From assembly GCF_000003815.2 (NCBI RefSeq), contig NC_049985.1, positions 11,756,251-11,820,250 on the forward strand: DNA of 64,000 nucleotides. The letters run 5' to 3'. The notes under the pieces were generated by a model. It saw only the letters and a list, made by a program, of their open reading frames with translations. It was not told the origin of the DNA and did no database searches. How positions within the stretch are numbered: position 1 is the first letter of the stretch; the number at the start of each line of letters is the position of its first letter. Shown here piece by piece: positions 2,195 through 55,200 of this stretch. The position numbers and the translations under genes are program-made. The DNA comes from Branchiostoma floridae. Its lineage: Eukaryota > Chordata > Leptocardii > Amphioxiformes > Branchiostomatidae.

Positions 2195-2615
2195 GGATGT
2201 TATGTTCAGCACCAAGGGCAGGTCAGGCAGTGCGGCTGCAATTTACAACAACAGGGGCACAGGTCTGACAGTGCGGATGTTATATTCAGCACTAATTATA
2301 AGGACAGATCTGAAAGTGCGGCTGTTATATTCAGCACTAAGGACAGGTTAGGCAATGCGGGTGTTATGTTCAGCACTAAGGACAGGCCAGGTAGTACGGA
2401 TGTTATGTTCAGCACCAAGGACAGGTCTGACAGTGCGGATGTAATATTCTGTACTAAGGGCAGGTAAGACAGTGCGGCTTCAATGCACAATAACAGGGGT
2501 AGGTCTGACAGTGCGGATGTTATGTTCAGCATTAAGGACAGGTGTGGCTGCAAAGTACTGCAACCGGGGCAGGTCTGACAGTGTGGATGTAATGTTCAGC
2601 ACCGGGGAAAGGTCA
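2195..2615 (+). repeat. Minisatellite (~39-bp unit) carrying an RE1-like motif
   Basis: Diverged tandem units contain 'acagtgcggatgttatg' followed by a TTCAGCACCAAGGACAG-type core. The core is exact at 2408-2424. It has one or two changes at 2205, 2330, 2369 and 2525, is disrupted at 2285, and is more diverged at 2595. The core differs at one position from the first 17 bases of the vertebrate RE1/NRSE consensus as I know it. The same core is found at 33.5-33.7 kb and, on the other strand, at 52.1-52.7 kb. Confidence 0.8.
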
Positions 2616-3737
2616 TGCTAGCACAAGGGGGGGGGGGTACATTCTGGCTTCCTGGAACTTTCCTTTGGTACTCTAGAGAAATGATAATGTACTTCTTAGG
2701 GGTTCCTCTTTTCTATCTGATTCACACAACGCCAAACTCTTACAATCATTCATTATGTACAATGTACAAATCATGAATATAAACCAATCTTCCTACCAAA
2801 CCGACTTGGAAGTACTTGCGCACAATTAAGCTGTGACGTTATATAAAATTCACTTTCCTTACACGACACGTCATAACATGAATTATGTTACACTATGGTT
2901 CATCCTACATTTCTTTGTCATTCTATTGCTTTGCCTGTCTGTATTTGTTTTCAGTGTTACTGCATTTTGTTTTGATGTCATACGCAAATAAACATTGAGC
3001 TTGAGTGTGTCATTTTGTCTTTTAAATGTTGCAATAAAAAGAACTGTTGTAGATGAAAGGTGGCGTTTTAACATTAAAGTGATACACAGAATGACGCACA
3101 TCGGCGCTCTTTAGACAGTAAATTGCAGGTGGTATATGTGCATGGATGGCACAAAATGTTAGTATGATTCACATCATACTTCATTGGAAGTTTTGTGGAC
3201 TGTAGGGTAAGGCTGCTATCTTACGCTTGGTACGTGTAACTTTCAACTGTGCAACGACAAACTGCGGATATACACGGAATTGCACAGAACGCCCTATTAT
3301 TCCATCATTCTACCTTTCGCTCATGTACATGATACATTTCACTTGTTGCCCTATAGTTTGTTATTTGTCTAATCTCTGGAAACGGCTTTCATTTAAGACA
3401 AAGAAAATCCCCACAAACGAATGATTGAACCGACAGAACTTGTGTGACCGGGCTACTTTTTTTTTACACAAACACGCACAGTAAATGTTTTCTTGGTTCC
3501 CAATACCATTATTATTATTTTTATTTATCTGTTCACGTGGCCTCAATATACTGTATATTTCTTCGTATTTTGTTCAATAGTTGCACATTGTCAAGTTACA
3601 GTTACCGTAAAGACGATGGCTGTAACATTCTTTAATTAGGTTTCGATATTCTCTTGTTGATTTGGATCGTATTATTAAAATCTTCATAACGTTATTTAAG
3701 CTATCGTAGTCCTAAACAACCACACATGTGCGCGCGC

Positions 3738-3789
3738 CACACACACATACATACATACATACATACATACATACATACACACACACACG
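3738..3789. repeat. (AC)n/(ATAC)n microsatellite
   Basis: An acac run, then about nine catа-type tetranucleotide units, then acac again. Confidence 0.9.
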
Positions 3790-5330
3790 TGTAAATGTAA
3801 ATATTACGTACGTTACTTCATATTGATTCATGAATTTTTAAATGATCATTTAATTCTGAAGAAAATCCTTGCTAAAATTAAGCTTTCGTTCGGTAAGTTA
3901 TGCGTTTCCTCACACAAGATTCCTTTACACTTGCTTCACCTCATGTAGTCAAACCATGATGTCACAATTTTATTGGTTCTACTACGTAACCTTCTCACTG
4001 TTGTCTACCCCTTAGCCAATACAACTTTGATGTCAAACAGCTACCTTTGCGTGCTAAGGGTTAACTGTCCTGATTTCACACTTTTCCCTGTGTATAACAT
4101 CTATATAGCTATACAGCTATAACATCCAATCATGATGCACGGATTCATTACTTCTTACATTATCACCCACACACCGAAAATCCTGGCTACAAACACGACT
4201 CCCTACAGAAAGATGTTACTTAAAAATGGAAAATAAAAACATAAATGAATAGATAAATGAAGTATAACTGTATTGATGTATTATCAGTACACCTATACAT
4301 TAATAGAAGAATGATAATAATCCGTTAATAAAACAATAAATGAATCAATAGATTAATTAGCTATGATTTATCGATGGTTAATTGATATTTCAAGTCGTAA
4401 GATTTCACATTGTTAATGAAACAATAATTGCATTGTTAAATCATTAACATATTTAAAGAACTATAAATTGATAGCTTAATGAATGAACTGAATTGACTAG
4501 AAATTTAATGAATGAAATATAAGCAATTGTTAATTCGTTTTGTCCTTTTAGTTATTTATCGATTTCAATGTATTCATTGAACCATTAACTAATTCATCAG
4601 TCATTCATTTTAGTTGATCCATTTACTGTTTTAGAAATCGATCGATGTTAAATCATTGTATTTATCAAATGGACTGTGTCATCATTGATTGATAATTAAG
4701 CTATAAGATCATAAATTTATTTGCTGTATCTTTAACGTTAAGGGGTGGGAAAATGGCACTAAATGTTTCTCCCGCCTATATGCATGTTAAGCACTACGAC
4801 TTGTGGTCCATTACGGAGTTTATCATATAGATCCCAAACGTGTAAAACATCTACAGTTGAACCATTTATAAACAAATGTATAATTTTACAACTGTTAAGG
4901 CTCAGCTCAACTCAGACCCGTCAAATCTGTATTGGTGAAAGCTGTTAGTAAAAATGTTGAAAAGACACACTTATAAGTACACTTTATCTGTAATTTCAAT
5001 ACATGGTGTCCGCTTTGCTACATTGAAATGAAGATCAATTCTACTTCAAATACGGAATACACTTATTAGTATATGTCTTAAGTAGCAGACCTTGCCATAT
5101 TTTATATTATTGTTGAGCAAAATTATTTGTCATTTCTACAACTGCGTTATCACCACCAGAACATTCCCATAATGTTCACAAGTCACAATTAACACTGTTG
5201 TCCTAAGTTTCGGATTTCGAACAAATTCTTTGCTATGATCATAGGGTCTTCAACAAGGTGACTTCCATTCACTATTAAGACACTGAAGTCAACCCTTTCT
5301 TTGAAATCTTGTTGCCATTCTTTACTTGGC

Positions 5331-6539
5331 TTAAGGTGGCCGTTTTGTGCGAGCCTTGCACACGAAGGGATAGGGCTCGTCACAGTAAGCGTCGTTCCAG
5401 TGGCCTTGCTTCTTCTTCTTTCCAGTCCAGGAGTTATAGGTCTGTGGAAAATATTACAAACATCGTGTTATTCAGGCCATTTTTGTATATTCATTTTTGG
5501 AATGACATTCATCAGTTTCCTTACTTTTGAAAAGAAGGTCTCTTGCTGAGCTATTAATGACATTTTGATACGGTGTAAGAAAACCAGCAGAAACGATTTC
5601 AATCTTTGATCTGTACATGTATGTACTGAGAGATTCTAGAAATCGTACAAAATAAAAACAACAAGAATATACCACATGGCACAGACATAATCTTAATCTA
5701 ATTCATCTAACCATCAGTACCATATGCATAATTCGCCATCTTCTTGCATTATAACAAGTTAAACATTGTGTTATTCTGACCAGCTTTCCCTGTTGTGTTG
5801 GGAATGCAGGCCACTTTTGCCAGAGACGAGTAGAAATTAAAGAGCAGCACACACCTTGATGTACATAGCGCCACAGTGCTCTCCGCGGAACAGAGACATT
5901 ATCTTCAAGTTGTTAGGTTCACCAGGGGCCCAGTTCTTGTAGACAACACGTGACCCATCCGTCCACATCAATGGTCCTTTCTTGTGTATACCCGTCAGTC
6001 CGAGCCAAACCATTTTTTGCCTCCCTTCAGGAGCTAAAATGAAGAAAAACGTCTCGAGTTTTGTCAGTCAGCCGGGCACATCTGTAAGAGTCTGACTAGA
6101 ATAAATTTAGTAAGATAGATACAGCTGCAAAATAGTCATGTTAACGTTGTCTACAAATGCTAGACAAGAGGAGTATCTATCAATACATATGCATTATTGG
6201 GAGTTCGAAGGAAGATTTGCTTTTTTTCTCGTTTGAAGTATGGTTTCTTTGACATTAAAGGTAAAAGGTGGCAATAAGGATTTCTGACTGGTTGGTTTAC
6301 GAAAATGTTGGGCCTACTGGTGATAAGGTAAGACTCAAGATCCATCATCATTGTTATGTATGACCCACCTTTGGTGACGAAGGATGCAATGAAGTTGTTC
6401 TCTTGTGAGTTCTTGACAGACGCAAGATGTGCACTCATTATTTTGCACCTATCATTCGCATTACTCCAGCCGACTTTGCGTTTCACCAGCATGTAGCAGT
6501 AGTTGTTGTGCTCTTTCCACCCAGGAGAACATCGCAGGG
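5331..6539 (-). other. C-type lectin domain (three exons)
   Basis: Exons 6539-6369, 6033-5855 and 5441-5331 encode a long-form C-type lectin domain. All six expected cysteines are present (RCSPGW, YCY, DRC, EHC, AYC, VCK), along with the WLGL core, an EPN motif and a WND motif. EPN plus WND are calcium- and sugar-binding positions that in known family members prefer mannose, GlcNAc or fucose. The protein ends with a basic KARTKRPP tail and TAA at 5333-5331. The acceptor TTTCCACAG at 5442 was preferred to a later AAAG because it has a pyrimidine tract and keeps phase 0. Confidence 0.9.
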
Positions 6540-9500
6540 CTGTGAACAACGAGAGTGTAGTATGGCGTGGGCAAAGGCTCCTAATGGAGTTAAATTGTCA
6601 ATTTTTTCTCAAATGAATTGCAGCTACATAAACATGACTTCAAACCCAATCAAGTCTTTTGGTTCAACTGGACTAACTCAAGTCGAGTGGCAATGAATTT
6701 CCCATAGATATTTGTATGTGTCCTGAAAATAGAAAATCCTAGATCCTACAAACAACCGTTAAAGGGTACGAGTTCACCATACAATTGACAATTGATAAAC
6801 AATAACCTACCACGTTGGCAAGTAGGTCCGGTCCAACCAGATGAGCACGAACATTTGTAGCGTCCACGCCTGTTCATGCACTTCCCATGCCGGCAAGGCG
6901 TGGGCTTCTTCATGCACTCGTTGATATCTGTGACAGACGACAGAGGGGTTGTTATTGTTGTTAATTTAGGTATAGAAGCTCATCTTTATAATCAGAATTT
7001 GCACCGCCAGATTTTAGTCCAAGTTAGACCTTAAGGAAAGAAAAGAAAGGGGGAAAAGGACAATTAAAACATTTCAGATATAAGAAGTGAAAATAAGAAG
7101 ACAGGATACCTTGGTGACAGTTCTGTCCAGTCCATCCAGGCGAGCAGGTACATTTGTATCCGCCATCTTTGTTCACACAGCGTCCATGTTGACAAGGATT
7201 CTTGGTACATGCATTTATATCTGTGTGATAATGGTGGAATATCATATCTGTGTGATAATGCCGTAAATATCTTCTCGTAAAAAGATTTAATTCAGTTGCA
7301 GCTTGTCATGATTATCAATTCAAGTCATTTCCATATATAGTCTTGACTAGTTTACCAAAATGAAGAAAATGTCAAAGTATGGCTTGCCTTTCCTCAAAGA
7401 ATAATATCCAGCCTTTTACATGAAGGGTTCTCACCTTGCTGACAGTTCTGCCCAGTCCATCCAGGCAAGCAGATACATTTGTATCCGCCATCTTTGTTCA
7501 CACAGTGTCCATGAAGACAAGGCTTTCTGGTACACTCATCTGTGTCTGTGTGAAAATGGTGGAATATCTTCAGTCTTTGAAAAAGCAAATAGTGATCTCG
7601 TTTAGATGTAATTCGCAATTCAATGTTTCATTTTGGTTTCCTCAGAACTAAGAAGATATTAGCTTGGAATACTTTTCAACCAAGAAAAGCACTATTGGCA
7701 TTACCAATATCTTTCAAATTATAACAAGATAAAAACTAACCTTGCTGACAGTTTTGTCCAGTCCATCCAGGCGAGCAGGTACATTTGTATCCGCCATCTT
7801 TGTTAACACAGTGTCCATGTAGACAAGGCTTCCGGGTACACTCGTTTATGTCTGTGTGATAATGGTGGGATATCTTTTCATTAAGAAACAAAAACAAAAA
7901 CGATTCGAGATCATTGAGTTGCAGAAAAGTGCCTTTACGAAAGATTCCCATATGGGGAAAAAAAGTTTCGCAATTTAAGTGTCGAAAACCAATTTTCAAA
8001 ATTCAATCCTGATTTTAATTTGGACTTGGTATTTGATAAGTTTCATGTTGTCTTATATTATTACGTTAAGTTTACACTCGTCAGTTGTTCCACTCGTTTG
8101 GTTGTATGACATGTTATGTTATCCGGCTTTGCTTTAATTCGGTTTTGTTTAACTTGAACCGGCATCAGGACGTTCCTATAACATATTTAGCTTCACAGTA
8201 ATATACGCTCGTTTGTCTGAGTTCAGACATGGCTTTTGGTCAAATCTTGGTAAATACAGGAAGTCTGAAAAACAACTTGTTTGGTTTACTTTATTCAAAA
8301 GTGAAACCAAACACTACTGTTACTTACTGTAGCAGTTTAGGTTGCATGGACAACCGGCAACAAAAATGATATTTCCTTACCTGATGAAATTCTGAAAAGG
8401 TTCAGTTCTGTGAGATATGGCTGATAGCCCGAGTGGGTCCGAGTGATGAGGAACCTCCAGTACCGCGCTGTTCCCCGGAACCCGCCGAACTCCTGCCGCC
8501 GGTACGTCCCTCTTTGTACGTTAGTAACGGTCAGGACATCCTCCCAGTTGTACGGACTCCCAACCTGCGACTTTTGCAGCGTGAATGCTGCGATGTCATG
8601 GGTGGTGTCACCGTAGTTGTTGACTGCGATGCGGGTCAGAGTTTGGGGCACTGTGAGATCGAATGCGATGTACCAGTTGTGGTTTTCGTCGGTACCTTGA
8701 GGGTTCCAGTAGGTTCCAATATCGCCATCCAAGGCCTTTGCGGCATCATATGTCACTCCATTCTTGACCCACGGTGTGCCAGTGGACCCCACAACCCATG
8801 ACGAGTGCCGTGTTAACCATCCCCAGGAACACGCATTACAACCATCGAAATGCCTTTCATCTAGTCGAATAAGAAACAGAGGTGCAAATAAGGCATATGA
8901 TGATGGACAATTCTCACCTTCTTCAGTGCAATTCTGACTGGTTCACATTGTACTGCAGGACAGATGTCGCTGCTCACAGTTCAGATGCGGTCCTGAAGAA
9001 GGTGACAGACGGTCACCGAGCACTGGTTGTGTAAAAAGAGTCTCTTTATTCAGTGACGTACCAACCTGATGAAACTGTTCACGGATAGTAGATCTAGAGT
9101 TTGGGGCTTTGTTAACTGTTACATCATATCATATCATATCATATATCATATCATATCATATCATATCATATCACATCACATCATATATCATATCATATCA
9201 TATCATATCATATCATCCTGCCTCATTATGGAAATAACCGTTGTAATTAGCATGCTCTATCATAATTGATGTTTTCTCTGCCTAACAGCCAAATTACATA
9301 ATTGTGCGTGAAAAAGTACTATCATTTGGCAAGATTGTGCATCCGTTTTCATTTTAGATTAAATTCTTTTAGAAAAAAAGCAATACATGAGTGAGACCTG
9401 AAAATAATTTGCGATGTGTGTAAGATGCACGCAGCGTTTTAGGAGGGGTAGATATAATCTAATGTCTCACGTAATCATAGTAACATTTGTTTAGTGTTTA

Positions 9501-12500
9501 TAGATCACAAAAAAGAGTACCAGAAGAATGAAAACGAGAAGAATTTGATGAATGCAGTGTAAACGTCGGCCCTTTGAACGGCAAATCAAGCACACCAACA
9601 TAGTGCCCAACACCTGCCTGCTATGTTGATAAGGAAGCTCTATACATTATGCATGACCATGTAAACTAAATGTAGTAAATGCCTACCAGAGAATACTTGG
9701 ACTTCACACAGGGTCAGTATTCGGTAAGGTCCGGGAAGACGGACGCCCACATAGCGACCCTTCATCCCCTGACAGGAGACGGAAATGGACGGCTGGTTCA
9801 GGTTCATTTGATGATTACCTCCACACTTGGGGTTCGCGCTGACCTGGTCGGAATCCCCGATGTGGATGTTGAAGGGGTTGAGTCGTTTGGAGCAACAGTC
9901 CTGGCGGTTGAAGATGACCACTCTGTAGATATTGGAGACAAAGCAGTGGCATTTGCTTTTCATACACGGTGTATGTTCTAATGAATGTCCTTATACCCCT
10001 GTCACATTTGGCAAAAAAGTTTTTTGCACAACAATTATACAAGGTACAAAGTATGGCCTATATGTGACAGGGACGGTTTTCAGGTGAAAAATACGCACAA
10101 TTCTCTGTCGATCTTAAATATGGCCGACCTTCCATCGATACGCCTGAAGATCGTGGATAATGTGACAGGGGTATTTTGAAACCCACTTAATACTTGTAAA
10201 CCTTTATATATACATAGTCACTTAAATTACTAATGATACTGGAACCTGCAGATCAAGCTTTTCGTTTATCAGGTATTGACTGATTCATCTACGTAAATTG
10301 CCGATTCAAATCAGAACGAAATACATGTATATAGACACGCATATAAGGCAAATTAATGCTAATGCTAATAATCACACATTCACAGACACACAAAAACTCA
10401 CACGCCTGCACACACACACACACACACACCTGTCTACAGTGAACACTCGGGGACTATAAGAAAATGGTCATGTGTGTTTGTGTGTGCGTCTGTCTGAGTG
10501 GACTTAATTCTTCGGCATATTTACTGTAATGTCGATATTTGATATTTCAGACTGTATTTAAAGATTTATCTAATGCTTCAGGATATTCAGTGTATCAATG
10601 TCATGTGTATATGTTTATGTGTTTATGTGTGTTTGTCATAGCGCCAACAACCGCTGCCTGTGACACTTGTATTGTTCACAATCCGAATAAAGACAAAGTC
10701 ATTAATGATATATTAACCTAGTGTACATCTATATATACGTACCTGTCAATCACATACGATTGCCCAAGATCCACCCACCAGCTCGGGTTAGCCTCCCCCG
10801 GGAAACCTTTAGTGTGTGTACAGGAACCATGGTGGTAGTGGGTATCGGTGTTTCCGTCTACGGCAAGACTCGCAGCCCCGTCCGGACGGCTGCTTGTTTG
10901 GAACGCTGTCTTCCCCAGGGCGACATTCATTCCTACCTCAGACGAGAGGACTGTCATTAGCACTCTAACTTTTCTGTCAATAGTCCAAGCTGAAGAAAAT
11001 GTTCTATTCCTAACAAAAAATACTATTCCCAGGTGCAGTACACCAAGTCAACTTAATTGGCCACCAGACATGGCGGCAGAGGGACATGTAAGATAACGAT
11101 GATTTGACTTTCAAGTGGGACATAATCATGTTTGAATAGGGGAAGGGAAAGGTGCCGAAAGGCTAATGAACAATGCTTTAAGTATAGAACAAACGAAATA
11201 TAACCTTATTGTCTGTCCAATGTCACTTATCGCAAGGCCATGTTGACTTGATTTTGTGTATGACATCCTCTGGGGACCCCAAAACTGATGCGAGCGTGGA
11301 AATAAAAAAAGGCCCCCGCCCAAAAATCTCTCTTCATTATGAAATCTAAGTTGTCAGGAAGACTGAAAAATGACTAAACACACAGTATGGTATTCCAAAC
11401 ACTAACTATAGATTTTTCATTTTGTTCTTTGACTTCGTCTTCTTTGACTCTGAAATTTACTTTGATATTCTAAGACACTAAGCTTCTTTTTTTGTGATAT
11501 ATTTTTTGTTTACAAGAAAAAAGCTAACCTTCCTGACAGTTCTGTCCAGTCCATCCAGGGTAACAGGTACATTTGTATCCGCCATCTTTGTTCACACAGC
11601 GTCCATGTTGACAAGGGTTCCTGGTACACTCGTTTATATCTGTATGGTAATGACGGGATATCTTGTCATTAAAAACAATTAGTGCTCCTTCAGATACACT
11701 TAACTATTCAATAATTCTTTTGGTGGGGTTTTACCCATAAGAAATATTTCTGGAACACTTCTCAACCTTCAGCAAGAAACTGCTAACCTTGCTGACAGTT
11801 GTGTCCAGTCCATCCAGGCGAGCAGGTACATTTGTATCCGCCATCTTTGTTCACACAGCGTCCATGTTGACAAGGGTTCCTGGTACACTCGTTTATATCT
11901 GTATGGTAATAACGGGATATCTTGTCATTAAAAACAATTAGTGCTTCTTCAGATACACTTAACTATTCAATATTTTTTTTTTTTTGGTTTTACCCATAAG
12001 AAATATTTCTGGAACACTTTTCAACCTTCAGCAAGAATATGCTAACCTTGCTTACAGTTCTGTCCAGTCCATCCAGGTGAACAGGTACATTTGTATCCGC
12101 CATCTTTGTTCACACAGCGTCCATGTTGACAAGGTTTCCTGGCACAGTTATTAATGCCTGAATGATAATAATTATTTTATTTTATGGTGTTATTATCAAC
12201 TGTTTGTCTGTTGTTTTATTAATACAAAAGCAGAATCACTGTCGTACAAGGAAGGCATGAAGAAAGAAAAGGGAAATCAAATTATCCTTTGACGTTTGTT
12301 ATTCATATGTAGAGATCATTTGCATAATCAATGATGCCAAATTGTTAAATTTGGCCGAAGGACTATCATTAAAATCCTCTCCATCAACGTTAGGTAATTA
12401 GAAACGCAACGGGCCAAACAAATCCCTCATGCACATGTATGCTCACCATCCTGTTCAATGCTACTTTCCTGTCTGGTACTGGCTGTGTACGTCTTGTTCC

Positions 12501-15500
12501 CGTAGACGTCATCTCGCAAACCCTGGGCAACAAATCCAGACGGCTGTGCCTTCACGGCAAAGCCTCCTGTGGCTGTCAAAGCAGCAATGTCTTTGAATTA
12601 GCATGGAAGTACACCTGTATTGGCATAGCTAAAACTAAATTAGTTCAAAAGAAAAGTTATCATTTTGAATTCAACATCACGAATCACATATATTACAGAC
12701 AAAAAGGGGGTGAGCACTCGTTACCTGTAATTGGCCCTGAGGTAAGAATTTGCGATAAACTTTGCACAATTGAATTGAAGAAAAGAAACAGGATTGTTGT
12801 TTGTGATAAGAAAGTGAGAACATACCATACTGACAGTTCTGTCCAGTCCATCCAGGCGAGCAGGTACATTTGTATCCGCCATCTTTGTTCACACAGCGTC
12901 CATGTTCACAGGGGTTCCTGGCACACTCATTCATATCTGTGTGGTCAAACATTCCTGTCATGGAACAGCATATCAACTAATTATCGGCTCAGTTTTTCAG
13001 CTCACAGAGAGGACGCTATTACTTACAACACAATACAAAAAGGAAACAGCATCATCTTTAGTTAGAGGAAAGAGGTGACCCACCTTGCTTGCAGTTCTGT
13101 CCAGTCCCTCCAGGCGAGCAGGTAGAGCCTTCATCTTTGTTCACACAGCGTCCATGTCCACATCCATCAATGTCTGTATAATGAGGAAAATAATTATAGT
13201 CTCAAATAGTCCCATGCAAAGCAATAGCATTTGAAATGTTATACACATAAATGTCTATATCTGCTTTTTGAAAAGCAGCTAACAGGTAATTTGAGCAAGA
13301 AAGATAACCAGACCAGACAAAGTATTCTTAATTGTGATGCTTTAAGAAAGGTACTTACCTTCTGTAAAGTTTGGTCTAGTCCATCCAGGGAAACAATCGC
13401 AGCCATAACCAGAATCATGGTTCACACAAGTCCCATGTTGACATGGTTTTGTGATACAACCATTTATGTCTATGTTGGAGGAACGTATCAAAATGACTTA
13501 TCTGATGAAGAATTTCAATAACTCGTTAACGTTATATGTATCTGAATATAGTACTCACCGCAAAATTTTCTTCTTTATTTTGGCTTATTCATAGAAACTG
13601 TCTGTAAGACCTTGTCTGACTTAGCCTGGGTACCATCCGGTTAATAACTCGCTCCTATGTTAGCTTCTTCTATATTTATGTAACGTTATGTATCATAAAC
13701 GACGAGCTGTTATCCGGGTGGTACCCAGGCTATGTCTGACTGTAGATTCAAGGACATTGCAGAGGATCAAGTTCAAGTTATGCTGACACATGGGTCCTAC
13801 GCATCTACACAATGTATTAACATTGTTTACCCGTGGTTGATAGGTATGTGCTCATTGTTGGTAAGGCCATGGTGTTCACAGTGGCGACAGTTGAGCTATT
13901 TGACATCGGGAGAGTCGTCATCAGTAGAGGACCTGCCCCCATCAGGGCGTCCTGCTGATACATTGGGTCATGTGGTGCCTACCACGGGTCAACAAAGTTT
14001 GAGTTTATTTCGATATCCTTATGGGGCTAATCCTGTAAAGGTTAAGTCAGAAGCAAACTAAGATACGAAATGTACATACATTTACACCGATATGTACAGG
14101 TGTCAGAGAATGACAATGCACACAAAAAATACGAGAAAAATAAAAAGTCATTCAACTTTTACGATATCAATCATTTGCCGGTGAACTATTAACCATTGGA
14201 TACGGTCTCTACACCAGTAGGTAGTCGATTCCAGAGCTTTACAGATCTAGGCACAATCGTCCTCTTTCCATTCTTACTTTTGGGTTTGGGTAATAAAAAT
14301 TGTACAATAACAGTCTTGTTACATGCCATCGCGTTCGTGCATTGAAACGTTGTATTTGTTGGTGTCCCTCGATTCGCCTGTAGCAACAATTCTAAACAGT
14401 AGTTTCAAAGTACGTAAACTTGGTTTTATATTTTACCAGTATGTAGCCTAAATCCACCATGTCAATTTGGAAAGTTACATTTAGATATCACTATTGTTGT
14501 CTGATATATGGGAAGTTCATAATCAATCAAAGAAGACGGTAATACTTTGGCCCACCTTGCCTCCAGGTAAGAGATGAGTTGCCAGGACCACAGTAATGAC
14601 AACTGTGACTACCACAAGGAGACCACAACCGGTACCCAGCGCTAGCCAGAAGACTCTGTTAGATGTCAACTTTTGCCACATGTCCCAGACGCGCTCTGAG
14701 ATGGAAGGAATTTGATTGACATTTATTCACCAGCTATGTGGCCTGATAATTAAAATATGTCACATAATGCCTAGGAGATACATTGTACAAGCTTTGCAAT
14801 AATAGTTCCAGATGAAATTAACGTTCTACGACCTCATGCCGCGTAATGTTAACCTTTTGAGTGATGCAACGTAAATGTTTCTCATTGATTATGCAAATAA
14901 GGCGTGTTTCCAAAGAAAGCAGCTAGGGGGCCAGACTTTGTCACCTCTTTGTAGGCACAAGAGCTATCTGCCACCAAAAAAGTCCATTCCTTTGATAAGC
15001 GCTAAGCCAAGATCTAACCACACACTAAGCTCATATCAATCCATTGATAGCATCTTGAGTTAGGCAGCCAAACCACCAACACTAGTACGGCAAACGGTAA
15101 CAAAAACATAACCACCTTGGCAAAGTAACGTTTTGCAAAGTACACCTCAGGAACTTTTTATTTCTGTTCAAGCTGTGGCATTGACATGCATGTAAAATAT
15201 GGTCCCAGTTTTCAGAAAGCACTTGTGACTACAGCTAGACTAGATTATATTTCGACGGACAATAGTTAATGTTTGCCCTCCCACTCTGTTTAACAAGCCC
15301 GTCAAAAAAGAGATTCTAACTTTTCATCACAGAGCGTCGCCTGCAATGTAACGACCAAAATTTGTTGAGTTTTATATATTCATAAAAGGCTTCATATACA
15401 TTACACTCAAGCCTGAAAATGTGAGTTGTAACGTTACTTCTTGTTTCTGGGTGGCGGCATTGGACGCCCTTCCTAATGCAGATAAATAAATTTAAATAAG

Positions 15501-32919: not shown

Positions 32920-33416
32920 TGTGGACACTGCGGATGGACTCTCCTGCTATTGGAGAGCAGACTGACTAGGGGCACATAAGGTCTCAAGTCCTAGATTTGT
33001 GATCAAAAGTTGTGGGTGTTCTGAGATGGTTCACAAATGTACAGAATTCAGCTGTTTTAAGAGAAAAAAGGATATCAAATAGTCAGTTCTGTGAAAATTC
33101 TACAACAAAAACATCATATTACGAATGTGACTAAAAGATGACAGATGCGGAATACATGGCCCTATGACTATGGCATACCACAATGTGATAAGTAGTTTAT
33201 ACATGATATATGAAATAATGAAACAAATGGTTGTAAGATATTGATGTTGTGTTTCTAGCTGTTAAGATATTGTAAATTTGTAGTACCGAATAGTGGCAAC
33301 ATACAACGCAATCATTAGCTTATGTAAGAATCAGAGTAGTGATTTAAAAAGTTAGACAACATTTCATTACAGACTCTACCATTGGTCAGTCTTCCTGTCC
33401 TTAAGGAGAATATATC

Positions 33417-33735
33417 AAGTTATAAAAATCAATGTTGACAGGTCTGTGATTTTCAAATTTCGAATCCATCACAGAAAACAATACCAGTGGACTGAGCATA
33501 TCAAAACGATTCTTCCATAGTTGACATGAAAGTAATTCAGCACCAAGGACAGCATAAATATTAAGTTATTATAACCAATGTTGACAGGTCTGTGATCTTC
33601 AAATGCAATAATTTCAAATCAAATCTCACAGAAAGCAATACTAGTGGACTGAGTACATCAAAATGTTTCTTCTGTCCTTTATTTGGGACTAGTTGATAAG
33701 AAAGTAATTCAGCACCAAGGACAGAATATATTAAT
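33417..33735 (+). repeat. Tandem duplication carrying two RE1-like motifs
   Basis: Two units (about 33417-33562 and 33563-33735) share 'aatgttgacaggtctgtgat', 'agtggactgag' and 'gtaattcagcaccaaggaca'. Each contains an exact TTCAGCACCAAGGACAG (33536-33552 and 33708-33724). Unit 2 has an extra insertion of about 20 bases. Confidence 0.85.
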
Positions 33736-41200: not shown

Positions 41201-41381
41201 ACTGAAGTTTGATCATAGGACGTCCAAGTTTCATACATCTGATGTGCCTCCCAGTGCCGACTGTGAAGTGACAAGTTTGAAAACTTTAATGCTTGTAAGC
41301 ATTCTTGTGAATTCTGGAGCAGAGGTGGGGACCGCATCGTCTCTCTGACCAAGGCTTCCACACCCGAGATCGAGTTTTACA
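41201..41381 (+). other. Probable 5' UTR part of the TRIM-NHL gene
   Basis: A good acceptor (TTGTTCTTTTCAG) ends at 41200, followed by 181 bases to the start ATG at 41382. This suggests an upstream non-coding first exon that I could not place. Confidence 0.45.
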
Positions 41382-44017: not shown

Positions 44018-47000
44018 CAATGCGAGGTCATTACCTTGCTTCTTATCATTCTCCTAGGTACCTAATTACCTGCAACCTATACAATATATATTGGGAAACC
44101 TGTACAATTTATCTTAAGATTAGATATCTTAAGATTATTCTCTATCTTGGGGAGGCTCCACTACTTTGTGGTAGTGGTCTCTAACCAATCAACCAATCAG
44201 TCTGCCAATCAGACAATCATCTATTCTTTAGGTAAAGCTGATTCTCTGATTGGCGTCAATGGCTTGAATAAAAAACAGCGTACAGGCTGATTTGAGAACG
44301 CCATGAAAGGCGTACAGGCCAATTTGAGCATGTCACGAAGAAACAAAGGTTTAAACAGCCTCCACAAGGTATATTGTGTTGGCTGTGGGTAAGGTACTGC
44401 GTAGGAGAATCGTTGTAATAGGATCAAGGCATAAATAAAAAGCATAATGCATACAACAAGAATCAACTGTACTGTTATTCACTTGATAATGGATAGACGA
44501 TTTCATGGACTGTATCAGACATCATTTCCATGTTATCACTTCATCTCATGCTTGCCATCGAAATAAAAGCTACAGGATTGTGAAATTGACTCGGCTACAC
44601 GTACATGCTCTTGTGGCCATCTCCTATCCAGTCTAGAACACAAAGGTAGTCACAAAACTAAAATGCCCCCCCCCCCAATAAATGTTGCTTAAAATAAAAC
44701 ATGCAGACTACCTAAGAAAGAAAAAGCATCCTTAGCTTTAATTAGCCAATACAGTGAAAGCATTATTCCAAAAAGAGGACCCTGCCAAATGACAGTACCA
44801 CATATACATGTACCTTTTAGAGACAACCCAAAAATGTATAACATGCTTTGATGTGAATTACAAATTCATAAACAGTATGAGATTATGACTCAACACTGTT
44901 TGCTGTGTTGCAATGTGGCAAGTGCAAACTCACATATATCGTGAAAGGCTGACTGTAGGAATGCGCTGAGTAAGAGAGCTGAAACATTGCTGTACAAGTT
45001 GTTCCCACCAGACATGGTAACATGCATGGAGCCCATGTACTGATCATCTATGCTGCAAAACCACCACTGCATGGTTCAATTGTAAATGCAACGTTGTCAA
45101 ATGTGCAATGAAACTGAAAGGAGTTTTATGAAAAAACCATATGAAGTTGGTCCTAAGTACTGACAAAAACATGTTTTAAATTTTGATAGTGATGTTTCTT
45201 AAGTTATTACATGATTGTGTATATGTATATTATTTTATAACATTGCTAGTAACAAAATCACTATTACTTCTCAATGTACAGGTGTCATGTTTAATTGGTT
45301 AAGAATTTATCATTTAGAGTAATTAAAGTAATAGGATGGGCAATGCATTTCAAGAGTGTTACCGTGTATTTGGACTTATTCAGGAATTGCAGTTCATGCT
45401 TATGCTGTTTGATTCAAACAGTTTGAGTTCTAGAAAAGATATAAGGACATAGAAAGTAACTAGACATGTAGTTTGCAAAGATCCTACATTATTGTTGCAC
45501 CATATTCTGTTCTCTGAATCATTAAACACGACAGCTCCATATAAGAAAGTCACTCATATTTTTTTTTTAATTACATGAGTATTTTATTACTGAATAAAAT
45601 AGACTGACAATTTCATCAACAACTGTTCCCATGGACTCACAATACTCCTTCACCTGGATCTCAAAGATACATTGATACGAAAGACATTGTGAGGACCAGA
45701 TATTTGAAACAGTTACAGGATAGCAACCAGTTTTGTGCCTTTTAATAGTTATTGGTAATTCTTGGGTGATTCTGATTTTCGGTTACAAATTTGTCTTTAT
45801 CCAAACTGTACAATTATAGAGAAGTGGATGAAAGGCTCTCTCCAGCTTGTAACTTTTCTCTATTGTCTTTGACATGCATTCAGTCCTGTATTGATTTGCA
45901 AAGGTACCATCACGTTATGTTGGGGAAGGGGGGTGTCCAGATTAATGCAGGCATGCTTCCCTTTGAAGTTTTGAACTTCTTAACCCTCATATTTTTTTTT
46001 TTTATGCTACTTCCTGCAATGCTGTTGCAATCAACCCTGCTTTCAACATTTTGAGCGATTACTTTCAAATGACTGCATTCTTATACAGTTAAGTTGACGT
46101 TCTGTAGTATTTTTGACCACAAAAGAATATTAATTTCTGTTTGTCAACGCAACGATTGAAATTTCGCCAGCAGCTAAATTCTGTCCAGGCTATGGACGGG
46201 AGAATGCTGGAGAGAGCCCTGAACTGCAGACATGAAAGTCGGTTTTGACTATGCACACCGCAACATGATGCCAAGTAGAAACTAAAATACAGTCTGAACT
46301 GAAAAATAGATAGCATGGTATCTTGACAAATAAGTTGTCAACTTGGTGTGGCTTATCCTTTGTAGTAATTGTTCTTGACTTTCGTGTTGTATTTGTAGAT
46401 AAAAGTCTAGGTATGCAAAAAGTGTCACGGCACAGGCGAGGCAAAATTTAGCTCACTGATTGATCTGAGTACTAGTGGTTGTTGCTGCAAAATGTTTGTA
46501 AGAGCTAACTTAAAGGGTTTTTTTATGACGAGATACATGAATTGCGCACTAACTCTTGTCCCATGGCTGCTACATGTATTTAGATATTTAAGATTACTTG
46601 CAGGAAGATATTAAACATTTGCGGATTCCTTGTCTATAGTAAGAAAATTGTAGACATTCCTTGTTGATAAGTCTTTGAAAAATAATCTTGAAGTGCTTTC
46701 TGCAGGAATTGCATGCATACTGGCATATATAATTCTCTTTTGTTTCCAATGCAATGCAAAGGTTTGTTTATCGTTGTTCTAGGCTAGTAGAAACTTTGTG
46801 CCATGTGGCAAGTACTGAAGGTTGAATATTGTATATATTTATCATTAATAGTTCAGTAACCTCAATACTATTGTTTACTTGGATATATATTAATAAGACA
46901 AAGTAGAATTTTCCTTTTGACAGTGTAATGCTAGTTCACCTTTATCCGCGGTGTAACCTTTATCCGTTGTTTAAAAAAACTGGGTATTTAGGGGTGTCAA

Positions 47001-47873
47001 TGGGACGGACGGTGGTTTTAAATCGGTAAACATGCAGGCTGTATTTTAAAAACGTTGCACCTTGAAACCACTGTCTATCCACTTGATATCCCTAAACACC
47101 CCCTGGTTTTAAAACAACGGATATAGGTTACTCCGCGGATAAAGGTGAACTAGCGTTATAAGCTTTTGAAAATGCCTGGTGAAGCAGGTTTGTCATGGAT
47201 TCACACCATCTCCATGTGTTCAAAGAAAGTTAATGTTTGCTTCTAGAATTTGAATAACAGAAGTTAAAAGCAGAACCAACACATGAAGTAGACTTGTTCA
47301 AGCAAGACAAAAACAATTTTGTGTGCAATGCTACTTGCTTTGAGAAGCCATAAATGTGCGATTTTTTTACACATGTATTATGAGGCTTCTTTTTTGCGTG
47401 AATGGTAGTTAGACTTAGCTACTCTCTAGCTTTCTAATTTTTGTCTGACACAGTATTCTAATCTTTAGGGGGGGGGGGGGGCAGTGAGTGTAAAAGGTTA
47501 CACTTGTGGTAAAAATAGATTTTTGTCCCTCCTCAGGAATAGGCAGGGTGAAATGTTTATGTCCCCACAACCACATTTCCATCCTAAGACATAGAGAATT
47601 TTTCTAGAGGCAGCCCTGTACTTAATATATCTGCAGTACAAGATGTTATTGATTGTTAAAAAATATTCTTCACCAGCCCAGACTTTTGACACGTTTATTA
47701 CCTCATGATTCTAACATATGTTTCGACCATTCAAGACAATCCAGACCATTGTCTTCAATCAAAGTTTCTTTCAAAGTTTTGTTGACTGTACTGAACTCCA
47801 TGACTTAAACAAACAACATAAAATAAAATAAAATGTAACACCTATCTGTAGCACACACTGCTCACAAAACACC
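44018..47873. other. Intergenic region between the convergent TRIM and AtuA genes
   Basis: Holds both 3' UTRs. AATAAA at 44267-44272 fits the plus-strand gene. TTTATT at 47694-47699 is an AATAAA on the minus strand, about 175 bases past the AtuA stop. A fold-back element lies at 46926-47158 and a poly-G run at about 47469-47480. No coding exon is supported. Confidence 0.55.
46926..47158. mobile_element. Fold-back (long inverted repeat) element
   Basis: Left arm 'gctagttcacctttatccgc' (46930 on) and the reverse complement of the right end (to 47154) match for about 45 bp with few changes. Similarity continues inward (gtatttaggggtgtcaa against ggtgtttagggatatcaa), so most of the 233 bp can fold on itself. 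Outer bases TAATGC/GCGTTA leave room for a TA target duplication. Confidence 0.75.
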
Positions 47874-50800
47874 TTACTGCACCAGTTTTGGTACATTTGT
47901 TATCTTGAAATCCAGCAGCATCTGTCCATAGGCTTTACCCTGGAAAAAGAAAAAAAAACACTGTAAATTCAATCATATTCGATATTTTTCCAAATCCCTT
48001 GCATTTCCTGAATACAATAGAAACATTTATTTTTGCCTTTATCTGATTTTATTTGGATCCACATCAGAAGTGGAACTGAGCTTTGACATAAGGCCTGAAA
48101 CCAGAGCTACCATTATCACCATGCATATATAGAAAAGTGATATCAAGAATAATACTTTCTTACACGTGATATCTAGTATATAGTCCTACGTACCTGTGGG
48201 TCACTCCTGAGTGAAGCCACCCCTCCGCCTCCCAGAGAGTTCTTCAGCACAAAGTTCAACGCATGGATTCCTGGAACATCATATCTACAGCAAGGAGAAC
48301 GGTAACACATATTAGATGTGAAATGTGATCTTGCCATAGTACTGGCCATATGGTTCAAGGAAATATGATGTTTATGTTTATATCTATATACAATTATGTA
48401 ACATTTGACAGAAAAGTATTCCAATCATCTTGTGGCGGAAACCATTCAGGAAGAAACAAAATAATTGGAGAGCACAATATCAGACAATGTACAACAAATT
48501 GTTTTACTTGTACTTGGCAATCTTAATACTAAGAGACAGTATATCTTCTTTTTTGGGAGGGGAAACTGAGACAAAGGAACATCAAAAACAATTTTTTTTC
48601 TTTAAAAAAGGGGATACTCCTGGCATTGACTACAACTGTCATAAAATACATAGAAATCTTGATGTAAAATGATACTTTTTCGACCCTTGGCTAAAATGTA
48701 TTTCTATCACTGCATTACCTGATGACTTGGGGTGACCCATCCTCCATGGGGTCCAGCAGGTGCTGGAAATACTGTTGAACAGCTTCAGGTGTCAGGGCAG
48801 CTCGCAGGTACGGCAGGTAAGATGGACTCCTGGCCACCACACCTGTGAAAATACAGGATAGTATGGACACAATCTCACAAGCGCCACCCTACAACTTGAA
48901 TCAGAACTGATCAGCATGAAATGTATCAGTACTGAAAGAATGAATAAGAAGGCATTTTTGGTAGTGGTACATATAGCAGCACCCACCAATGTTGCAGGAA
49001 TTTCCTTTATCTCCACTCCTGGTGTAGGCAAGGTCCTCTAGCCTGTATGTGCAGGGTCCACTCTCCAACGATTCTGTGTCAAGGCAAACAAAAATAAGCC
49101 CATATAATATTACTTCAGATAATCCTACAGTCTAGGCCACACTGACTTACATGTGTAATTTTATAAAATAATATTTACCTCTGCAGACGCATTGATTTTT
49201 GCCCACTCTAAAAAACCTGTGACCGCATGTGACCCATGAGGGCTTACCAGAGGATCTGCTCACCAGGGTAAAGGAGAACAATTCAGAATGGCAATGACTG
49301 TCTCCTACAGTCTTACTAGAGGTGAAAATAAGACAAACCAAGCCTGGCAAAGAATGGACTGCATGGATGTTTTGTCCTGTGGTTTAGCAGTGTTTTTTTT
49401 TTGCTGGATTTTTTTCTCACCCTTACGCATTAGTTTTGGGGTCTCCAGAATGTCATCCATAAAATCAAGTCAGTGTGGCCTTATAGTCAAACAGTGGCGT
49501 TTTGATAGCTGTAGAAATTGTTCAATAAAATAATCATTCTCCATAAAATTATATACTCGGCAATACCTGACTCCACTGGCTGGGCTTCCTGTTGCTGACC
49601 ATCAGCCCCATGGTCATCTATCATAGTCTCTACTTCCTGCCCATCCACATGGATGTCAATCTGGGGAAAAGAAAAGTGCAGTTTGAATAAAAAAATCCTT
49701 CAAATGTGACAACTGCATTTTAAAGTTAAGTATCCTTTATTCTTTCAAAAAGTTAGATGTGGCAAACTCACCTTCAGATTTTCTTTGTTGTACAGGAAAG
49801 AAAACAGTTTCAACACTGGAGACCTGAAATCATGGCAAAGAGCTTTTGATTTCATTTGGATGTATTCATTTCAAAATAAAAAAAGTCATCTATCTGATTA
49901 AAATTTGAATTTAATCATAAATGCATGTCAGCCATGAGGTACAATAAAACATACAACATACTTACACTCTTGGTCTGCCTCCGACAATCCCTGTCAAACC
50001 AGGTGCTGCAGAAAGGAACAAAATCTGTGGTATATTTATCAGAAATAAGTAAACATCTCGGACCATACAATGTACTTTCACTAAGCAATTTAAACTTTTT
50101 ACGGTATAAATGATGTGCAACACAGAGTATCTTATTTTCTCCTTTTCCAAATTACATGTTACAAAAAGTCTTGTTCTTCTGAAAGCTGTTGCAGCATATC
50201 TGCTTTAATTATGCAAATGATATCAAAATTGACTTTATCTAACCTACATGAAGCACTGCTATGATTAAATTATGCTTTCATTATCTACCACTAAGAATTA
50301 TACAATTTTCAAATTGAAAATTGGGTCTTGAAGAAGAAGTTACATAATGTAATGAGTATGATGCTGTCCTTCACCAAAATCAAACTATAAATTTTTAACA
50401 TTTATACGTTTTTCAACATTAAGGGTTGCAAATTGAGAAAATACACAAAGTTCAGCTGTTTTGTGACAATAACTTAAAAGGTGATCTTTGTCATGACCTT
50501 GCTGAATATTCTACAACAAATATACTGTCCAAGAAATGTGACTGTGAACAAACCCATGCCAGTGCCAGCAGGAGCGATCTCCCCAGCAAACAGCTGCAGG
50601 GCTCTTCTATCATTGTGCTGCACCCCAAACCAGAGGGCAACTTCACGCTGGGCCTGTGAGGTGGACAGTGGAGGGGAGGGAGACACCTTTTGTAAAAGCC
50701 CAGTTACAACAGAAAGTGAGGGACTGGAAAGAACTTTAAAAATCTGACTGTTTTCTGGTTGAGGCATTGGCACTTTACATGTAGCTTTCTTGGAGGTTGT

Positions 50801-52184
50801 AAAAGGCTAAAATGTTTATCATAATACACAATGAAACATATTTTCTGTGATTCTTAAAGAACAGTAGGAGACTTTACAAAAGCCCTCAAGAAGGATTTGA
50901 TAAGTTAGCAACACTAACCTTGGATAGTGTTGGGTTGGCATGTGGCCCATATGTTTCTTCTGCTCCAATAACCTGCAAAACAGGAAAAGGAACAGAACTT
51001 TAAAAGAAGTAGTGCATATTATACCATCTTATCAATCAATGCACATGTGATGAGTTGTTGAGCTCAGTACAGAAAAAGACAACTGGTATTTTGCACATAT
51101 CAATAAGAAATTTGATGTAAATTGTAATGATATGGTGTTAAAGTCGTCGTAAAGAGGGAATCTTATGTTTTAATTTATCTTAATATTTTGTAACACAACT
51201 ATGTCTATTCACAAATCTGTGAAAAATTATTATCTAACTTCTACAATTGCAAAATTCTCTTTGAGCAAGGTGATGAACTATAAGATAATACATTTTACAA
51301 TGTTACCTGTATGTGTACTTTCTTGAAGTCATCCATTCCAAGTTGCTTGTATATCCTTCTAACTCTGTAAATATAAGCACCAAGGGACAGAGAAAAATTC
51401 AAGGTTGTCATCATGAATGAATTTGATCCTTTTTTTTGGACCCAAAATGTATTATTCTGCCATTTTTAAATCCATGCAAAAATGTGGTAGATAAATTGAA
51501 ATACGAAATGATACAAATATTATGTACCTGAACTTTCCTATTTGAACTAACCTCTTCAGGATACTCTCTGCTGTTCTCCTGGCCTTGTCTGCAGACCTGG
51601 GTCCTCCCACAGCGCACACTGCCAGCGCTCGGTAACCATCAAAATATGTCGCACTCACCTACAAACACAAAACACTACTGGTATCTGCTTGGGCTTTTCT
51701 ACATTTGTGTTTTATGATCATTTAGAAATAGTGCAGGAAGGACTGTGGAGGTGCTATAATTCTTTGTTATGTCACTTTTTTGTAAACATTTCCTGAAATA
51801 TAATTGTTTCCTTAGATATCAAGTTTCTAGCCAAAAATATTTTTCATCTTCCTTCCACAGGAAATTTTGCAAGCGCATCCAACTACCATTCATGCCTTAC
51901 AACAGAAAGGAAACAGTGGGAGGGGGAGGAACAGAGGACAGATGAAAAATAGAGGTACCTTAGCATGTTTGGAAGGAGGTTTTCCTTTTGCCCCAGTGAC
52001 CAACACAGCACCTCCATCCTGACCTGAGTAAGAAAAACATATTTGAGATTGAAACATTACCTGAAAATATCACAATCCTGTCCTTGGTGCTGAACACTAT
52101 CCACACAAACACAGATATGCACATGCATACAGAATAGACTTGTTCTTGATGTTGAACACTATACACACAAATCTCCACACATAC

Positions 52185-52215
<31 letters not shown>

Positions 52216-55200
52216 CAGAACAGATCTGCCCTTGAAGCTGAATACTATTCACATACACATAAATATGAAGCAAGCCTGTCCTTGGTGCTGAACACTATTT
52301 ATACACATGGAATAGACTTGTTCTTGGTGTTGCACACTATCCACATACACAGAAAAGACCTGTCCTTGGTGCTGAACACCATTCTTACCTGTATCCATAC
52401 AAACCTATCCTGTATCCATACAACCTATCCTTAGTGCTGAACACCGTAAACACACAGAGATTAAGAACATATTTGTCTGTTTCTCCGTCAATCTCATACA
52501 CACAGAACAGACCTGTCCTTAGTGCTGAGCATTGTCCATACACACCACTGACCTGTCCTTGGTGCTGAACACTCTTTATACACACAGAACAGACCTGTCC
52601 TTAGTGCTGAATACTTTTCATGCACACAGAACAGACCTGTCCTTGGTGCTGAACACTCCTCATACACACAGAACCGACATGTCCTTGGTGCTGAACACTT
52701 TTCATGCACACAGAACAGACCTGTCCTTGGTGCTGTACACGATCCACATAGTTACACAGAATAGACCTTACCATCTCCACGCACAGTTTTAATGCTATCT
52801 ATTTTTCCAGTGGAATCTGTAAAATACACTTGATAATTCCACTAACCATCGATTTCCTTCAGTGTCACATCTGTAAAGTCACACGACACATCTGGAAGTA
52901 GGTACGCGCGTGGATCACCGATCTCGTACACAATCTGCTCGGCAACAGTCGGCGCAGACACCAAGCCACCAGTCCCTGGAGGCTTGCTCACAACAAACTG
53001 GCCATCAGAAGCAACCTCTACAATAGGGAAACCCATCTTGTCCCTGAGAACAATGCAAATATAGCTCATACATGGAGGTGTAAAAAGTTTCTGTCATTTT
53101 GCTTTTGTTTTGTATCATTTTTACTTCTGTATAATCTTCCCTAATTAAATCAGCAAACTCCAAAATTCTTTTTTTTTACATTTCTATCCTGCTACAATAC
53201 ATGTATCTTTCTGGTGCATTTCCTAGTAGGATGTAATGGGGCATGATGTCTTCTGTTGTCAAAAGCATAGACAAGTGCAGGTTACTTCCATTGACATTAA
53301 TGTACTTTTCAAAGGTGTTGACATAACATTATGCTGAATCTGGGACTACTAGTAATCTCTGTTGCATCCTAATAACCTACTGTTCAGAAGAAAGTAAGAC
53401 CAACCAGACTTACCAATCTGGTATTGTGTGCCAGTCAGTAAATATCCCACCAGTTCCTTGAGCACCACACTCAACAATATGGCCTGCAAGGCTGCAAAAA
53501 CATAAACACAATCACTTGTCTGAAATATATCTGCAATATGTAGCACTGAAATATGAACAAGAAAAAGGCCTCTTAGATCTTGTGAAGATGACTTGATCCA
53601 GTGCTCAAAGCATATCAGGGGACTTGACCCTACACCCTCTGGGTTAGACCCTTTAAGCCAAACATCCTAAAATTACATTACCCAATGCTACGTGATTCAG
53701 GTCTGTAACTGACTGGACTTGAAGAGGATGTCAGTGACCTTCGCAAAATACATGTAAATCAACATGGAAAACAAGGAGAGTTTAACAAAGAACACTAATT
53801 GTTATGGTTTGACTTTTTTTACCTTCCTGCTGCAAGAAGATCATAGTCTGTTGTCTTCCAGCCAAACTGTGGGACAGTAGGACAGATCATATTACAAAAT
53901 ATGACTACAAATATGAAATAAAAACTTGATAAGCAATTATTACAGATGAAGTGTTCATTAATCAAACAACATCTTTATTTTAAAACCAGTCCTAAGTGAC
54001 TACCAACAGTGCAAGAACACTTACAGAGTGTACCAACAGTGCCATAAACACTTACAGAGTGCAGCAATGGTCCCAGCACCACAGCGCTGTCCACACACCT
54101 CCCTGTGATCACTACATCAGCTCCATGGTCTAGAGCTCTGCTGATTGGCCGAGCCCTACAGAAATGACCAAATAAGGCTTTAGGCTGTTATGCTAATGAG
54201 TTGGGGGACAGAAGTTTCAAGGCCTAGGGCTCTGTTGATTGACTGAGCCCTACAGAAATGACCAAATAAGGCTGCTAAGTTAATAGAGTTGGTGGGAACT
54301 GCAGATTAATGGTCTAGGGCTCTGTTGACTGGCCAAGCCCCACAGAAATGACCAAATAAGGCTGCTATGTTTATAAGGATAGGGAGAGGCAACACAACTA
54401 AAACTAGGCCTGTATGCACTGATATTATTTTCAATCTGTAGCAGTTTTTCTATGATATTTCAAACAGGACAATTCACATATGAATGTTGACTTTGCAGAT
54501 GTATGTTACCTTACCCTAGNNNNNNNNNNNNNNNNNNNNNNNNNNNNNNNNNNNNNNNNNNNNNNNNNNNNNNNNNNNNNNNNNNNNNNNNNNNNNNNNN
54601 NNNNNNNNNNNNNNNNNNNAGCAATGAGAGTTAGATGCAAGTTACAATTACATAATGATTGTGATAAATGATACAGATGCAGATATGGACCTGGTGTGAT
54701 ATAGAATATACATCCTACTGTTGGTAGAACTACAGTAGACAGACGGAGGAGCAAACCTTTCTTTTTGATGTCCTTTATGAAAGGTCCAATAGCTGTTCGG
54801 ACAAAATCTGGAGCATAGCCAAAATTCTGCGAAGGAAAAATACAATTATGCTTTAAATTGATTCACCTTGATTTACCTTGAAAATTAACACAGATGCAAA
54901 CACACACACACACCAATAGACAAACGCATAGACACATACAGACACACATGGACAATGCATTAAATCTTAGCTTTCTTTCAGTTACATTTTAGAATGACCC
55001 TGACAAAAACAACAACAACAAAAAAAAACACCTGATCTTTCTGCTTTGCGGCGGCCAGGAGAGACATGGTGATCTCTGCCAGGTAGTCAAACACCAGGAA
55101 CTCAATATTGCCCTGGTGGATCAGCTGTGGAGCTGCAGTATACAACATCATCATTATTGCTTAACAAGCATCAGATGTACAAAAACAACTGGCTCTAATC

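Follow-up and report, generated by a model that had tools for sequence, protein, structure and literature searches.

An RE1-like 17-bp word dispersed through the genome of the amphioxus Branchiostoma floridae and tandemly amplified at a minority of loci

The RE1/NRSE element, the target of REST/NRSF, is part of a well-known vertebrate system that keeps neuronal genes silent. According to PMC4777549, the element consists of conserved 9- and 10-bp motifs with a 2-bp linker between them, and NRSEs also occur in human LINE2 retrotransposons. The word described here comes from B. floridae, an invertebrate chordate, and shares with RE1 the 9-bp left half TTCAGCACC, a free 2-bp linker, a fixed spacing, a right half starting with GGACAG and dispersion in thousands of copies. 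It differs in the missing CGCC 3′ end, in the thousands of letter-identical copies and in the frequent tandem arrays. The multi-copy state is shared with the LINE2 elements, but isolated amphioxus copies have no transposon flanks.

The word was found in a stretch of 64,000 nucleotides (the window). Here TTCAGCACCAAGGACAG occurs 19 times with three or fewer mismatches, eight times exactly, while 100 dinucleotide shuffles gave a mean of 0.23 and a maximum of 2. Loci 1, 2 and 3 hold 6, 2 and 11 of these copies (1, 2 and 5 exact), which confirms the recurrence reported in the earlier note (about 7, 2 and about 10-12). Locus 1 is a plus-strand minisatellite (2195-2611) with a main period of 39 bp; its six cores lie at 2205-2611 and the only exact one at 2408-2424. 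At locus 2 two exact plus-strand cores (33536-33552 and 33708-33724) stand 172 bp apart in a block that, read by eye, is duplicated in part. The string TTCTGTCCTT (33670-33679), upstream of the second core, can pair with it in a weak hairpin (z -1.5). Locus 3 is a minus-strand minisatellite (52078-52740) with a main period of 42 bp and its eleven cores at 52078-52737. Some units of loci 1 and 3 have 24 bp, TGTTCAGCACCAAGGACAGGTCTG, in common, while the likeness is limited to the 17-mer at locus 2 and among the isolated copies elsewhere in the genome.

The word agrees with the RE1 consensus in each of its 15 half-site letters and in the 2 bp between the halves, and the match of 16 of 17 bases given in the earlier note is correct. 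The resemblance ends early in the right half. At 33 isolated sites the 10-bp right half GGACAGCGCC was not found: GGACAG is kept, positions 18-21 are not CGCC, and the 3′ side has nothing beyond a slight preference for G at 18 and a tendency towards pyrimidines at 21. An estimate from base composition puts the genome count of TTCAGCACCNNGGACAGCGCC at about 15 for an unconstrained 3′ end. The RE1 reading stands for the half-site architecture, with its linker and the held letters 4-5 of the left half, and falls short at the 3′ end; the name RE1-like is supported for this variant, with a putative reader.

A genome scan, proposed in the earlier note, covered 513 Mb with the reversed word as control. 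It returned thousands of copies: 4,344 exact ones with none for the control, and 20,139 with up to two mismatches with 78 for the control. With a copy counted as isolated when no other copy of up to four mismatches lies within 400 bp, the first 100 exact copies include 33 isolated ones. Their 500-bp flanks are similar (E 1e-5) in only 1 of 528 pairs, and the likeness among them starts and stops at the boundaries of the 17-mer. Isolated flanks are unrelated, which argues against spread by transposable elements, the route that had been suggested, and a transposon origin was rejected for these isolated copies, whose flanks do not align. The view that the loci share a source is not borne out either, given the same flanks and the differences between array units. 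Adjacent short direct repeats are slightly in excess at isolated sites (mean 2.06 versus 1.65, p 0.04). The reverse complement of the 17-mer also occurs in three papers on heart cells or mice, where we take it to be a primer.

How strictly are the letters of this word held? With any 2-bp linker at positions 10-11 the genome has 7,427 sites, that is, 3,083 beyond the 4,344 with AA, whereas an even spread of all mismatches in the two-mismatch set would give at most 1,858 linker variants. Freeing letters 4-5 of the left half gave 4,517 sites, an addition of 173. By locus, the AA linker is absent from 22 of 43 (C1:0.417-8.73 Mb) and AG at 4-5 from 2 of 54 (C1:0.84-14.9 Mb). Single sites make up 33 of the 43 linker-scored loci, and the majority linkers are AA (20), AG (10), AC (4), TT and AT (2 each) and GC, CA, GA, GT and TG (1 each). 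The linker sequence is thus free to vary, and letters 4-5 are strongly held. Constant parts around two free middle letters are what is expected of a site read by a protein. In 18 of 20 groups of copies the core also differs less from copy to copy than either flank does, a count favoured by the picking of units by core similarity. Among those 20 are loose-match groups (up to five mismatches) in L001, L013 (twice), L014 and L020 that are probably due to chance.

Some vertebrate RE1 sites have an expanded spacing between the half-sites. Summed over spacings of 3-14 bp, the amphioxus genome has 171 sites (control 3) against the 7,427 at 2 bp, which shows the linker length to be fixed, and 75 of 100 among the matches listed carry a near-canonical site anyway. 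The other 25 of these 100 are without a near-canonical right half, and 10 of the 25 have spacers of 7-9 bp, a weak bump; expanded spacing was rejected.

The picture at single positions is less even. We compared 80 distinct variants from the window and from genome loci that had been picked because they hold exact AA copies; many of these loci are arrays. Position 14 varied in 20 of them, 11 in 18, 6 and 9 in 13 each, 3 and 15 in 12 each and 17 in 10; linker position 10 varied in 8, and the least varied were 4, 5 and 16 (3, 3 and 2). Changes therefore fall on half-site positions as well as on the linker. The control pair 4-5 ranks among the steadiest positions of this sample. All the half-site letters may be constrained.

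Taken together, the 17-mer is probably a dispersed protein-binding site of RE1/NRSE architecture, with the left half, the 2-bp linker of free sequence and the right half GGACAG as its layout, that has been tandemly amplified at a minority of loci. A putative repressor, most likely with multiple zinc fingers, would read the word at a few thousand places of the amphioxus genome, and TTCAGCACCNNGGACAG would have a sequence-specific binder. The candidate reader may be a diverged relative of REST or a protein of equivalent function, as Charlatan is in the fly, and its action would presumably be silencing. At some loci tandem amplification has turned the site and its surroundings into minisatellites whose units measure about 35-160 bp; loci 1 and 3 are two of them.

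In the search for such a reader no REST gene stood out among the 147-150 of 3,719-5,701 candidates scored in each search, a further difference from the vertebrate system. The top match to REST fingers ZF1-8 was a generic poly-finger protein (45%), and that to ZF2-4 reached 40%. The Pfam model zf-C2H2_REST found dozens of generic fingers above its 27-bit cut-off, the best at 32.7 bits versus 93 for the human region, and the contact residues of 20 finger loci coincide with those of REST at 4-10 positions out of as many as 32. Among the candidates scored no REST orthologue emerged, those recovered looking like generic finger proteins. Solved structures queried with the REST fingers gave no REST-named entry in the best 60 of 207. 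Linkage to mir-124 came down to a single sub-threshold match, at a locus without the string AAGGCACGC. Neither RE1 sites in amphioxus nor miR-2060 are mentioned in the portions consulted of the literature on PGBD5, huntingtin, neuroglobin, neural miRNAs and amphioxus miRNAs.

That no REST gene stood out among the candidates scored speaks for another view, in which the site resembles RE1 by convergence, is read by an unrelated protein, zinc-finger or other, and has no role in neural silencing. Gene fragments near the sites are also of mixed kinds: 4 of 10 have Pfam matches, to FN3, LRR, MoCoBD and, below threshold, a nuclear receptor. However, agreement with the RE1 consensus in 15 of 15 half-site letters and in the 2-bp spacing is hard to reach by chance, and the vertebrate linker form AC is present at single-site loci. 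We consider convergence unlikely.

About equally improbable is the suggestion that the core, together with its binder, is itself a cause of tandem duplication, perhaps by acting as a replication barrier or break site, and that minisatellites arise around it again and again; this is compatible with the binding-site reading. Array-type copies were present in 25 of the 57 genome stretches examined, and core-bearing groups have periods of about 35, 39, 42-45, 57, about 100 and about 160 bp with partly different spacers, as this suggestion would have it. On the other side, unstable minisatellites lie at several amphioxus genes, and the passages of PMC3087553 that describe them do not mention the core, so some overlap is expected. 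The 'mirage' minisatellites of that paper (Adh3 and globin genes) are likewise tandem repeats in amphioxus genes, but they span exon-intron boundaries, while the core of locus 3 is intronic and recurs at thousands of other places. Locus 3 lies on the sense strand within one intron (about 52846-52024) of a minus-strand gene segment (51959-53491) for an AtuA-domain protein (PF07287), with three exons at about 53491-53414, 53043-52847 and 52023-51959 (boundaries read by eye), and its array crosses no exon-intron boundary.

It is rather doubtful that the repeat is the miR-2060 family born from a minisatellite, with hairpins of adjacent units processed from the AtuA intron and from similar arrays. 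The mature bbe-miR-2060c-3p (gttcagcaccaaggacaggc), which PMC5650284 gives as reduced in B. belcheri after poly(I:C), is identical over 20 of 20 nt to positions 52293-52274 of the minus strand, and a precedent is human miR-941, said to come from an unstable tandem repeat (PMC4949557); the amphioxus repeat differs from the latter in that its core is a genome-wide word resembling a binding site. Adjacent units of locus 3 form a long pre-miRNA-like hairpin (52540-52655, minus strand; -44.5 kcal/mol, z -4.0), and the locus folds better in sense (-35.9) than in antisense (-22.4). The hairpin is only modestly unusual once the tandem structure is preserved (z -2.4; 9 of 400 controls do as well), and the units of locus 1 (158 of 400) and of L034 (317 of 400) are ordinary. 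At gathering scores, Rfam had no match in the window. The 33 isolated copies have no flank in common and so lack a common hairpin, and a free 2-bp linker is not predicted by a miRNA. As the whole explanation a miRNA was rejected on these unshared flanks and the modest tandem-preserving control.

Very unlikely is a neutral dispersed repeat, one transposon or mobile minisatellite copied with its core surviving by chance: the left flank like GTGGATAGTG common to many 42-44 bp arrays, the slight direct-repeat excess and the variants at several half-site positions speak for it, and the last keep it from being closed, but the isolated flanks largely refute it for isolated sites, and even decay predicts equal numbers of variants at 4-5 and at 10-11, against the 173 and 3,083 seen and the 2 of 54 and 22 of 43 loci changed.

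With the binding-site reading as the preferred one, we tentatively propose, at less than even confidence, an invertebrate chordate with a genome-wide RE1 code of a few thousand loci, many letter-identical, and no recognisable REST, in which independent amplifications of the word produced minisatellites with many different unit lengths, and some of these give small RNAs annotated as miR-2060. For amphioxus miRNA annotation this is a caution, as miR-2060c may be a repeat product. If the proposal is true, the silencer site is older than vertebrate REST or independent of it, and itself seeds tandem repeats; the same half-site architecture at thousands of places in an invertebrate chordate would mean either that the code originated earlier or that this word is recognised by a second protein. 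One could then also test by what route binding sites disperse when no transposon carries them, and how a binding site gives rise to minisatellites and lineage-specific miRNAs.

The 17-base word TTCAGCACCAAGGACAG, which had been read as an RE1/NRSE-like binding site of REST/NRSF, is present in the window in 19 copies at up to three mismatches, eight of them exact (shuffles: mean 0.23). Six copies lie at 2.2-2.6 kb in a 39-bp minisatellite (2195..2611, plus strand), two at 33.5-33.7 kb in a partly duplicated block (cores at 33536 and 33708, plus strand), and 11, minus strand, at 52.1-52.7 kb in a second minisatellite with a 42-bp period (52078..52740). The third array is intronic, within a minus-strand AtuA-domain gene (PF07287, E 2.6e-51). 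By eye, the segments 33393-33402 (TCCTGTCCTT) and 33670-33679 (TTCTGTCCTT), upstream of the two cores of the second locus, could pair with AAGGACAG; the corresponding segment is absent immediately upstream of the first of these cores.

The recurrence at three loci is real and far larger than the earlier note saw. Across 513,431,437 bases in 431 contigs the exact word occurs 4,344 times (1,970 + 2,374), whereas the same word read backwards occurs 0 times; with up to two mismatches the counts are 20,139 and 78. The number of loci in the genome is roughly estimated to be of the order of 2,600, extrapolated from 43 loci in 8.3 Mb, part of one contig. Loci are mildly clustered, with 12 gaps below 20 kb among 60 start points where 4.4 were expected.

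Other features of the window include genes for a RING/B-box/filamin/NHL protein, TPR repeats, an F5/8-type-C domain and a C-type lectin domain. An open frame of 1,091 aa (59817-63089) has TPR repeats with a DUF294 match and contains internal 132-bp tandem repeats. A 259-bp unit in 2.4 tandem copies with 93% matches (11513-12146) resembles by eye duplicated EGF-type exons on the minus strand, and a 293-bp unit in 1.8 copies (855-1390), starting near a TATGCAAAT/ATTTGCATA palindrome, is possibly a small DNA transposon. About 100 unknown bases (N) fall in 54509-54862 (minus strand).

Some arrays may yield small RNAs. PMC5650284 gives gttcagcaccaaggacaggc as bbe-miR-2060c-3p of Branchiostoma belcheri, down after poly(I:C), and this was the sole text with the exact word in a full-text search of 5.39 million papers; the reverse complement occurs in three others. 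Window positions 52293-52274 (minus strand), in the third locus, are identical to this microRNA over 20 of 20 bases. Neighbouring units there form one long hairpin (-44.5 kcal/mol, z -4.0 by ordinary shuffles), but under a tandem-preserving control nine of 400 shuffled units are its equal, and units of the first locus and of the fetched stretch L034 are ordinary. A precedent for a microRNA derived from tandem repeats is miR-941 (PMC4949557, in extract). A microRNA does not account for the dispersed sites.

Descent of the loci from a shared source and spread by transposons, both proposed in the earlier note, are not supported. We examined 100 listed copies of the 4,344 at the sequence level, in 57 stretches of contig C1, and 33 of the 100 were isolated, with no other copy (up to four mismatches) inside 400 bp. 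Flanks of these 33 look random, with low information at all positions outside the word; the strongest signals there are a preference for G at position 18 and for C or T at 21. Only one of 528 pairs of their 500-bp flanks was similar (BLAST, E 1e-5), and GC was alike near and far from the copies. Adjacent direct repeats were slightly in excess (2.06 vs 1.65, p 0.04). Immediately before one isolated exact core (L060 around 1500, minus strand) stands another site, whose linker is AT (TTCAGCACCATGGACA).

Tandem arrays around the core are diverse: in 20 core groups, five of which are probably chance matches, the periods are ~35, 39, 42-45, 57, ~100 and ~160 bp. Many 42-44 bp arrays have a common left flank like GTGGATAGTG and may therefore be related; spacers in L037, L041, L046 and the first window locus differ from these. 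Units of a group resemble each other more in the core than in either flank in 18 of the 20, an outcome favoured by choosing units by core similarity; the exceptions are the first window locus (core 0.80, left flank 0.81) and L009 (core and right flank both 0.92). Since unstable minisatellites have been reported from amphioxus (PMC3087553, in extract), amplification around a site is not strange by itself; the strange part is that it recurs around one single word. At L012:322-1336 (minus strand), next to a core, a long open frame encodes repeated peptides and is itself a tandem array unrelated to that core.

Even decay of repeat copies would be expected to leave every position equally variable. 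With any linker allowed we found 7,427 sites genome-wide, 3,083 of them non-AA; with any letters at left-half positions 4-5 there were 4,517, and 173 were variant. If all mismatches in the two-mismatch set were spread evenly, variants confined to the linker would number at most 1,858. Of 43 loci on C1:0.417-8.73 Mb, 33 of them single sites, 22 had no AA linker; of 54 loci on C1:0.84-14.9 Mb, two lacked AG at 4-5. Majority linkers at the 43 loci were AA in 20, AG in 10, AC in four, TT and AT in two each, and GC, CA, GA, GT and TG in one each. Half-sites 3-14 bp apart numbered 171 in total against three for the control, and a near-canonical site also lay within 75 of 100 listed matches of this kind. 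Given the 3,083 linker variants and only 171 sites at 3-14 bp, the half-sites keep their distance and the linker sequence can vary freely. This agrees with a published account of RE1 as two conserved motifs, of 9 and 10 bp, with a 2-bp linker between them (PMC4777549). A tally of 80 distinct variants from the fetched loci and the window, biased because the loci had been selected on exact AA copies and arrays contributed many of the variants, gave 20 changes at position 14, 18 at 11, 13 each at 6 and 9, 12 each at 3 and 15, 10 at 17, eight at linker position 10, and three, three and two at 4, 5 and 16. The control pair 4-5 is among the steadiest positions, and therefore the half-sites are shown to be constrained at letters 4-5, with constraint on their remaining letters putative.

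The RE1 reading is thus supported in its architecture, a free linker and a held distance, and not in protein or function. We infer a silencing role solely from the likeness to RE1. Pfam matches in four of 10 gene fragments near sites were mixed (FN3, LRR, MoCoBD, a sub-threshold nuclear receptor). A Vsx/Chx10-like homeobox fragment, recognised by eye, lies at L024:2070-2459, 0.6-1 kb from an isolated core, with no Pfam match in that frame. Among the open-licence papers listed in our literature searches, none had a title or displayed abstract concerned with RE1 sites in amphioxus.

The putative reader would most naturally be a zinc-finger protein. Our query was the human REST fingers, in which Pfam zf-C2H2_REST was recognised at 93 bits. 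Among the 147-150 scored of 3,719-5,701 candidates, these fingers matched generic-looking finger arrays alone (top 45%), ZF2-4 gave a top match of 40%, again to generic-looking fingers, and dozens passed the 27-bit cut-off of the REST-specific Pfam model (best 32.7 bits) with no standout. In 20 fetched loci, 4-10 of up to 32 contact residues in the fingers were the same as in REST. The amphioxus word lacks the CGCC end that vertebrate RE1 has; its absence would fit a protein with N-terminal fingers unlike those of REST. Charlatan of flies is treated as the arthropod NRSF in the extract of PMC4777549, and the amphioxus reader could be either a REST that has diverged or, as with Charlatan, a counterpart of it.
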